IMG/VR virus record: IMGVR_UViG_3300030106_005909
Span: 1 to 48,970 of that record
Length of the DNA stretch: 48,970 nt
Direction: 5' to 3' (one strand)
DNA from: a virus
Below, piece after piece: positions 11,678 through 41,835 of the stretch. The notes below the pieces were generated by a model, which saw only the letters and a program-made list of their open reading frames with translations, was not told where the DNA came from and did no database searches. A program made the translations under genes and the position numbers. Position 1 is the first letter of the stretch, and each line of letters begins with the position of its first letter.

Positions 11678-12577
11678 ATGGAACTAATAAGACTATCGGG
11701 GCTGCAGGTTGACGAAAAACTAGAACCGTTGATAAGGGAGTGGGTATCTCGCACAAATGACCACACAAAACGTGCATACGCGCAAGACATGCAGTCTTTG
11801 GCTCGATGGGACGCCGACGCATTGAAAAAAATTGTGCTGGGTGATGCTCGTGATGCAAATTTAGCCGTCATTCGCTACAAAAAACACCTTGAGAGCATAT
11901 CCGTAGCGCCGAAAACAATAAACAGGCGTTTGTCCTCGACCAGATCGCTTGTGAGCCTGGCAAAAACGCTTGGCATATGCAATCACACCGTGACTATAAA
12001 GAATGTACGGTCTACACCGTATCTTGATACCAGGGGACCGGGGACAGAAGCAGTCAAGGCCATGCTGCGACTCGCAACAGAGCCCAGAGATAGGGCCATG
12101 GTGTGTTTGCTGTACAATAATGCGCTTCGCTGCGGAGAGGTGCTCGCTATGAACGTGGGCGATGTCAACCTGGATCGTCAATCGCTGGCAATCGTTGGCA
12201 AAGGACAAAGAGAGCGCAAAAAAATCAGCGCAAGCTCCCAAACTATCAATGCTTTGAGGGCCTGGCTCCGATGTCACCCAAACCCAGTGGACAGTAGCCC
12301 GTTATTTGTGTCTCGTGATAACCGCTCGAGAGGCACGCGGCTATCTAGCCGAAGCATGCGCCGAATAATCAACAAGCTGGGGCGCAAAGCTAACACCAAG
12401 GCTACGCCACACGGCCTGCGCCACACCGCTATTACTGATGCGCTAGAAGCAACGGGCGGTGACATTCGCAGGGTACGCCTGTTTAGTCGGCACAAAGACA
12501 TCAACACGGTGCTTATATACGATGACGCCAGACAAAACTGGCACCGGCAAATCAGTGAAAAAATTAGTATTGGTTGA
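11678..12577 (+). CDS. int: Tyrosine recombinase (phage integrase)
   Basis: A 299 aa protein, AGGAGG before the ATG. Residues 15-110 form the SAM-like core-binding domain. The catalytic domain shows every expected residue: R151 in LLYNNALRCGEVL, K175 in VGKGQRER, H245xxR248 in PHGLRHT, H272 in FSRHKDINT, and the nucleophile Y281 in VLIYDD. It would join the phage attP to a bacterial attB and make the phage temperate. It lacks a long N-terminal arm-binding domain, so it is nearer XerC/D in size than lambda Int. It ends 70 bases before a strong terminator. Confidence 0.93.
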   Translation: MELIRLSGLQVDEKLEPLIREWVSRTNDHTKRAYAQDMQSLARWDADALKKIVLGDARDANLAVIRYKKHLESISVAPKTINRRLSSTRSLVSLAKTLGICNHTVTIKNVRSTPYLDTRGPGTEAVKAMLRLATEPRDRAMVCLLYNNALRCGEVLAMNVGDVNLDRQSLAIVGKGQRERKKISASSQTINALRAWLRCHPNPVDSSPLFVSRDNRSRGTRLSSRSMRRIINKLGRKANTKATPHGLRHTAITDALEATGGDIRRVRLFSRHKDINTVLIYDDARQNWHRQISEKISIG

Positions 12578-41715: not shown

Positions 41716-41744
41716 GTTTGCCCCTCCCAGGGTGCTGTATCTGC

Positions 41745-41797
41745 TGGAGTCAATCAGAGGGGTCGAACCTCTCCTGTAGCCCTGCCGCTAGACTGAC
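41745..41797 (-). ncRNA. tRNA-like element lacking an anticodon arm
   Basis: Read on the minus strand from 41797 to 41745: a seven-base acceptor strand GTCAGTC pairs with GATTGAC (one G-U), a four-base hairpin TAGC/GCTA with loop GGCAGG follows, then linker CAGG, then a perfect T-arm AGAGG-TTCGACC-CCTCT with canonical T-loop, then discriminator T and an encoded CCA. The D-like arm and T-arm are present but no anticodon arm exists between them. It lies between the coat stop (41836) and the next start (41715). A tRNA-end integration site is the main alternative, but the complete acceptor pairing favours a folded RNA. Confidence 0.65.
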
Positions 41798-41806
41798 TGA
41801 TGCCCA

Positions 41807-41822
41807 GGGGCCAAGCGGCCCC
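41807..41822 (-). promoter_or_regulatory. Hairpin between coat gene and tRNA-like element
   Basis: GGGGCC-GCTT-GGCCCC, a perfect six-pair stem read on the minus strand, just past the coat stop and upstream of the tRNA-like element. No T-run follows, so it is more likely an RNA-stabilising or processing stem than a terminator. Confidence 0.6.
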
Positions 41823-41835
41823 CAGACTACTTCAA

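Follow-up and report, generated by a model that had tools for sequence, protein, structure and literature searches.

Why should a phage carry, directly behind the gene for its coat protein, an RNA that resembles a tRNA from which the anticodon arm has been left out? The question is raised by a stretch of 48,970 nucleotides, positions 1 to 48,970 of IMG/VR virus record IMGVR_UViG_3300030106_005909, called here the window. An earlier note on this DNA had described a 7-bp acceptor stem, a D-like hairpin and a textbook T-arm packed into 53 minus-strand bases just 3' of the major capsid protein (MCP) gene. All of these parts lie where they had been placed (Table 1), and the 18 bases that separate the acceptor strand from the T-arm indeed leave no space for an anticodon arm. 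Judged by its conservation, the element is real and under selection as an RNA structure, a tRNA mimic in which the acceptor/T-arm domain is retained together with a D-like hairpin, and by comparison with annotated families it is a previously unannotated kind of tRNA mimicry. It probably marks or protects the end of the coat-protein message.

The element and its fold

Table 1. Positions of the tRNA-like element, its neighbours and comparable folds in other phage sequences (window coordinates unless a contig is given).
Feature	Position	Strand	Remarks
Major capsid protein (MCP) gene, 428 aa	41836..43122	minus	phrog_14242 major head protein, E 1.3e-54
11-bp GC hairpin GTCTGGGGGCC-GCTT-GGCCCCTGGGC	41802..41827	minus	27/28 columns invariant; just upstream of the element
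tRNA-like element without anticodon arm (whole)	41745..41797	minus	GTCAGTC TAGC GGCAGG GCTA CAGG AGAGG TTCGACC CCTCT GATTGAC T CCA; geometry and conservation in L002-L009, L011
Acceptor stem, 5' strand GTCAGTC	41797-41791	minus	pairs with GATTGAC, 7 bp
D-like hairpin TAGC-GGCAGG-GCTA, 4 bp	41790-41777	minus	stem invariant in clade; loop GGCRGG
Linker CAGG	41776-41773	minus	joins D-like hairpin and T-arm
T-arm AGAGG-TTCGACC-CCTCT	41772-41756	minus	canonical; GGTTCGA invariant in clade
Acceptor stem, 3' strand GATTGAC	41755-41749	minus	one G-U pair; GATTGGC in L006/L007
3' tail, U73 and CCA	41748 and 41747-41745	minus	UCC invariant; UCCG in half of relatives
Probable ribosome-binding site GGGAGGGG of the 208-aa gene	41721..41728	minus	sequence inspection
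Next co-directional gene, 208 aa	41089..41715	minus	no family match
phi9 leader fold, gene 8/gene 9 gap	L212:200-290; L213; L198:552-640; L205-L211; L233; L261		
Candidate AGAAATCACG/TGCGGCTGGGCACTAG/GTTGG-TTCGATC-CCAAC/CGTGATTTTT	L159:6367-6420		near ordinary tRNA genes
Candidates with acceptor GGTCAGCGGG	L136; L154:5827-5880		D-like AGC-GGCGGG-GCT
Candidates GGCGGCG..CGCCGCC-ACCA	L177:5297-5350; L187		single GC hairpin in middle
Candidate with canonical D-loop AAATGGT	L132, near 241	minus	no anticodon arm; near ordinary tRNA genes

Could such an arrangement arise by chance? In 14.4 Mb of mononucleotide-shuffled sequence, scanned on both strands, the geometry of the element (acceptor, T-stem and T-loop with a short middle) was matched once, so that about 0.003 chance matches are expected in the window; a scan with a looser geometry gave 3 matches in 7.7 Mb. 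This low rate and the strong conservation described below together rule out a chance origin, and they agree with the earlier judgement that chance was unlikely when all pairs fit, one of them as G-U. The folding energy of the 53-mer is unremarkable relative to shuffled sequence (z -0.45), and for this reason conservation was used as the decisive evidence. Two folds are about equally stable in the window sequence, the tRNA-like one at -16.5 kcal/mol and a rival at -17.0 kcal/mol; the former is the energy minimum only in the relative L006. RNAalifold, applied to nine sequences over the whole gap between the MCP gene and its downstream neighbour, recovers the upstream hairpin and three tRNA-like helices.

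Like a tRNA gene, the element possesses a 7-bp acceptor and a 5-bp T-arm with a UUCRANN loop. The full cloverleaf is absent, and a tRNA gene or tmRNA was rejected on this ground and on the lack of any ARAGORN or Rfam match; with cmscan no Rfam family rose above its gathering threshold for the window element, and among the relatives and analogues only an ordinary tRNA in L159 did so. Indels of 1-5 bases between relatives and in-frame stop codons argue against a coding sequence in the gap, and a promoter was dismissed for want of a sigma-70-type site within the element. Among isolated phages no noteworthy DNA match to the element was seen, and neither the window element nor the T7-family fold treated below was found described in the open-licence papers searched, which is weak evidence of novelty.

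Conservation and genomic neighbourhood

A scan of IMG/VR with the MCP gave ten loci of close relatives, whose MCPs show about 72-83% identity. All nine of the loci that include the gap between the MCP and the next gene (L002-L009, L011) have the element in it; L007 and L008 are the same in the gap, and the distinct gap sequences are hence those of eight relatives plus the window. Invariant columns number 43 of 52 in the element, as against 22 of 126 four-fold degenerate sites in the adjacent MCP gene, and by this measure the element is under strong selection, conserved far above neutral. Each of the whole relatives (47-50 kb) has exactly one copy, always at the MCP junction, and no tRNA genes were found in them; a second copy is likewise absent from the window, where the best other match reaches 12 bits.

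The A at 41798, A(-1), is invariant in the clade and could form an extra pair with U73. Counted with the acceptor this makes 8 pairs, and none of them is lost in any of the element's five distinct versions; the only acceptor change in the clade is one from U-A to U-G in L006 and L007. Over the whole element, pairing in these five versions is 100%, and it falls to 24-42% when the partners are slid by 1-3 columns. The concern that relatives might lack compensatory changes is answered by L006, whose T-stem (GCAGG/CCTGT vs AGAGG/CCTCT) has one compensatory pair and one A-U replaced by G-U. Within the clade there is little covariation (a single pair changed on both sides, a result that 93 of 500 shuffles reach) because the element hardly varies, and the D-like stem, being invariant, contributes none; this hairpin and the T-loop are the most invariant parts of the element. 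The encoded CCA that the earlier note had pointed to is present in the window, but its A is not conserved: the window, L003, L009 and L011 have TCCA, L002 and L004-L007 have TCCG, and only the CC is kept.

The gap, 120 bases long, holds first the GC hairpin and then the element. No intrinsic terminator is present at the hairpin, which is followed by no T tract (2 T in the next 8 bases). It is nearly without variation in the relatives, its GCTT loop included, and because such conservation exceeds the needs of a plain hairpin it may be bound in a sequence-specific manner. In distant MCP relatives (25-30% identity) the element was not found. Among the 42 of these with a readable junction, a strong perfect hairpin directly follows the MCP stop codon in 21, and in 18 of these 21 it makes an intrinsic terminator (a hairpin with at least 4 T in the next 8 bases), Arthrobacter phage Jasmine (L015) being an example. 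At that same junction the window clade has a terminator-like hairpin without the T tract and then the tRNA mimic. The comparison suggests that the MCP junction is often a transcript boundary, which would favour a role for the element in making or protecting an mRNA end.

Elsewhere in the window, a tyrosine integrase gene (11678-12577, plus strand) makes it probable that the phage is temperate. No tRNA 3' half was seen beside this gene.

Comparable folds in other phages

By way of a fortuitous T-arm match in phage EG1, the analysis reached T7 and its relatives. The phi9 transcript of these phages, Klebsiella and Citrobacter relatives among them, opens with an acceptor-like stem enclosing a middle hairpin and a T-arm, with no anticodon arm; the T7 sequence reads GGGAGAC C TCATC-TTTGAAATGAGC-GATGA CA AGAGG-TTGGAGT-CCTCG GTCTTCC. 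Folding alone yields the three-way fold for most of the sequences. In a covariation set of ten (T7, EG1, Sibilus, Citrobacter YSYH, KP32-type and others), 92% of pair cells are standard and 28 show changes on both sides, where shuffling gives a mean of 10. The set scores 0.484 for covariation and shuffled sequences score 0.178; the former value is reached by 0 of 500 shuffles and approached by no slid register. Loops ending in GAGG accompany the T-loop TTCGAGT, and those ending in GAGC (GCGC in one) accompany TTGGAGT; the co-change would amount to exchanging the tertiary pair 19-56 of tRNA, and may be a single event. In some T7-type relatives the place of the fold is taken by a plain stem-loop.

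The phi9 leader resembles the window element in its acceptor-like stem, middle hairpin and T-arm and in its placement in a gap among the structural genes of a tailed phage, and differs from it in that its acceptor starts at promoter +1, its D-like loop is another one and a 3' CC is lacking. When the window-family model R1 was run on the T7-type L198 and L199, the T-arm alone scored, and weakly (11 bits). By these likenesses the phi9 leader fold is analogous to the window element, with strong covariation of its own, and it is unannotated in T7 and the relatives of T7.

A pattern scan that combined the D-loop core with the T-arm returned the clade and also unrelated contigs with similar candidates (Table 1). 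Their model E-values are biased, as the contigs were fetched by sequence; the L136/L154 and L177/L187 pairs are the only candidates backed by more than one contig, and some of the candidates may be decaying tRNAs. Several matches were dropped from consideration as ordinary tRNAs (L142 Tyr, the L115 array and a second site in L132), plain hairpins (L155 and phiBT1) or coding sequence. Two further structures were observed. In L180:9084-9145 (IMG/VR 3300049165_000014), a tRNA-like cloverleaf with a UACG tetraloop in place of the anticodon loop lies directly upstream of an Lsr2-like gene, so named by sequence inspection, in a gap bounded on its other side by a 106-aa gene. In Streptomyces phage Anedea (L200:380-535), a tRNA-like acceptor (GCCGGGG/CCCCGGC), a D-arm and a T-arm, not found by ARAGORN, flank an anticodon region replaced by about 80 bases with promoter-like TTGACA..TAGGAT.

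Possible functions and relation to known systems

RNase P needs little in its substrates beyond an acceptor/T-stem stack of about 12 bp, a T-loop and a 3' RCC-type motif, of which N73-C74-C75 pair with the P15 loop of RNase P RNA; known substrates are phage M3 RNA, phage C4 RNA and T4 gene 32 mRNA (PMC11143913). The element offers a 12-bp acceptor/T-stem stack (7+5), the T-loop UUCGANN and an invariant CC, with U rather than R as discriminator. We tentatively read it as a punctuation mark in the mRNA, of which RNase P or a related tRNA enzyme would read the acceptor/T-arm domain. Transcribed inside the late structural polycistronic RNA, in the gap between MCP and the next gene, the element would be recognised in the nascent RNA by host RNase P, which would cut beside the acceptor stem at 41797/41798, or one base upstream if A(-1) pairs with U73. 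The MCP mRNA would then end a few bases past the GC hairpin, which would shield the new 3' end from exonucleases, while the downstream RNA would start with the tRNA-like piece or be trimmed past it, its gene having a ribosome-binding site of its own for translation. In this manner the MCP message could be more stable than the downstream message, without a terminator blocking downstream transcription. Structure, conservation, position and the terminators of distant relatives form the basis from which we infer recognition, cleavage and the difference in stability.

Punctuation is favoured because the structure is kept in nine loci, the gap is conserved beyond synonymous sites and the junction is often a transcript boundary. 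The tail on the coat mRNA processed by RNase P and CCA enzymes that had been suggested earlier survives in part: an RNase P-type end is the best reading, but the CCA-dependent steps lose weight, as roughly half of the relatives have G in place of the final A and CC alone is conserved. An invariant CC with a variable A76 would fit the RCC:GGU contact better than a requirement for CCA. Several observations speak against punctuation. No arm is more conserved than the D-like hairpin, which RNase P does not need, and this suggests that another factor, or several, reads the full elbow; cleavage at +1 is not best served by A(-1):U73 pairing; the T7-family element, with no 3' CC and an acceptor that starts at promoter +1, makes a shared RNase P role less than obvious; and the fold is energetically no stronger than shuffled sequence, has a rival that ties with it and shows thin covariation in the clade.

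That the D-like hairpin and T-loop are so invariant would be expected of a tRNA-shaped module that is not cleaved at all, and whose D/T elbow binds a host factor or blocks exonucleases, stabilising the transcript or recruiting to it; PNPase or an Rsr/Y-RNA type complex, TruB, EF-Tu and a ring exonuclease are possible partners. YrlA, with its D, T and acceptor arms, does bind PNPase via its tRNA-like domain (PMC8394870), and the T7-type fold at the very start of the phi9 transcript, replaced in other relatives by a plain stem-loop, fits end protection. An uncleaved module leaves the conserved CC and the separate invariant hairpin unexplained, and there is no match to YrlA or any other Rfam family; we regard it, and its proposed partners, as somewhat unlikely. 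It nonetheless stays close to punctuation because of the invariant D-like hairpin and the T7-type element without CC. As part of the late capsid transcript the element should be abundant, and it has the recognition features of T-loop and acceptor, as would suit a decoy or substrate, an anticodon-less mimic that late in infection occupies tRNA-modifying, -cleaving or -aminoacylating enzymes or a tRNA-sensing defence. This is improbable, given that the encoded CCA is not conserved, that the acceptor sequence is almost frozen though a decoy could drift, and that the element is always fixed at one junction, which points to a role in cis.

One such role, translational control by a fold that gates GGGAGGGG, the ribosome-binding site of the downstream gene, we consider quite improbable. 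That site does begin 17 bases 3' of the element, with the start codon 29 bases past the element's end, and in most members its AGGGGC matches GCCCCU in the 3' arm of the hairpin and could pair with it; but this match is missing in L006 and L007, and the hairpin arm is invariant where its would-be partner is variable. A degenerate tRNA gene or a tRNA-derived attachment site, both proposed in the earlier note, must be called very improbable and is disfavoured. In its favour are the tyrosine integrase gene of the phage and the likeness of T-arm and acceptor to a tRNA 3' half; that gene, however, is 29 kb away, the relatives have no tRNA genes, and the acceptor 5' strand and D arm are also conserved, far above the neutral level that a decaying tRNA would show. 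Nor was an exact match to a host tRNA 3' half found: the pattern GGTTCGANYCCTSTGATTGRCTCC, which covers the clade variants, is absent from the GTDB genome contigs scanned, a set in which the true host may be missing. An MCP profile search of the genome contigs also gave no match.

Taking the window clade, the T7-type phages and the actinophage-like and other contigs as groups with several origins, unannotated even in T7, we suggest, with less than even confidence, that tailed phages use undescribed anticodon-less tRNA mimics as late-mRNA junction signals, reached several times and reading the host tRNA machinery via elbow and acceptor. Were this so, it would be the shape of tRNA rather than its decoding that phages exploit to cut, cap or protect structural mRNAs, and RNase P and similar tRNA-processing enzymes of the host would be tied to late-gene stoichiometry (much coat protein, little else). 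Through the T7-family counterpart the idea can be put to direct test in T7, among the most thoroughly studied of laboratory phages.

Among known systems, mascRNA of MALAT1 is a tRNA-like RNA at a transcript 3' end, where an RNase P cut leaves a structure-protected upstream RNA; unlike the element it is eukaryotic, about 61 nt long, has a small anticodon-like arm and belongs to a long non-coding rather than a polycistronic RNA. The Mu-gpT-DE motif is, as is the window element, a structured RNA downstream of a phage head gene. This motif, RF03012 (PMC7657543), was not matched by cmscan on the window element. With minimal RNase P substrates, which are hairpins of acceptor stem and T-arm, the element shares the 7+5 bp stack, the T-loop and the CC after the discriminator; in contrast to them it is natural, conserved and located in a phage late mRNA, and has an extra, invariant D-like hairpin. 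The tRNA-like domain of YrlA (PMC8394870) likewise combines D, T and acceptor arms, lacks an anticodon arm and mimics the elbow. The element differs from YrlA in its length (53 nt vs 90-150 nt), its place between two protein genes, its lack of an Rfam match and of a long basal Rsr-binding stem that would join the 5' and 3' ends; RNAalifold shows no pairing between its flanks, and the hairpin upstream of it pairs only within itself. Without a tag reading frame, away from any genome end and with no pseudoknot found, it also departs from tmRNA and from the tRNA-like structures that plant viruses have at their RNA ends; with the former it shares tRNA mimicry without a decoding anticodon arm and with the latter tRNA mimicry in a viral RNA, and it would add a bacterial-virus example to the tRNA mimicry of plant viruses, tmRNA and Y RNA.
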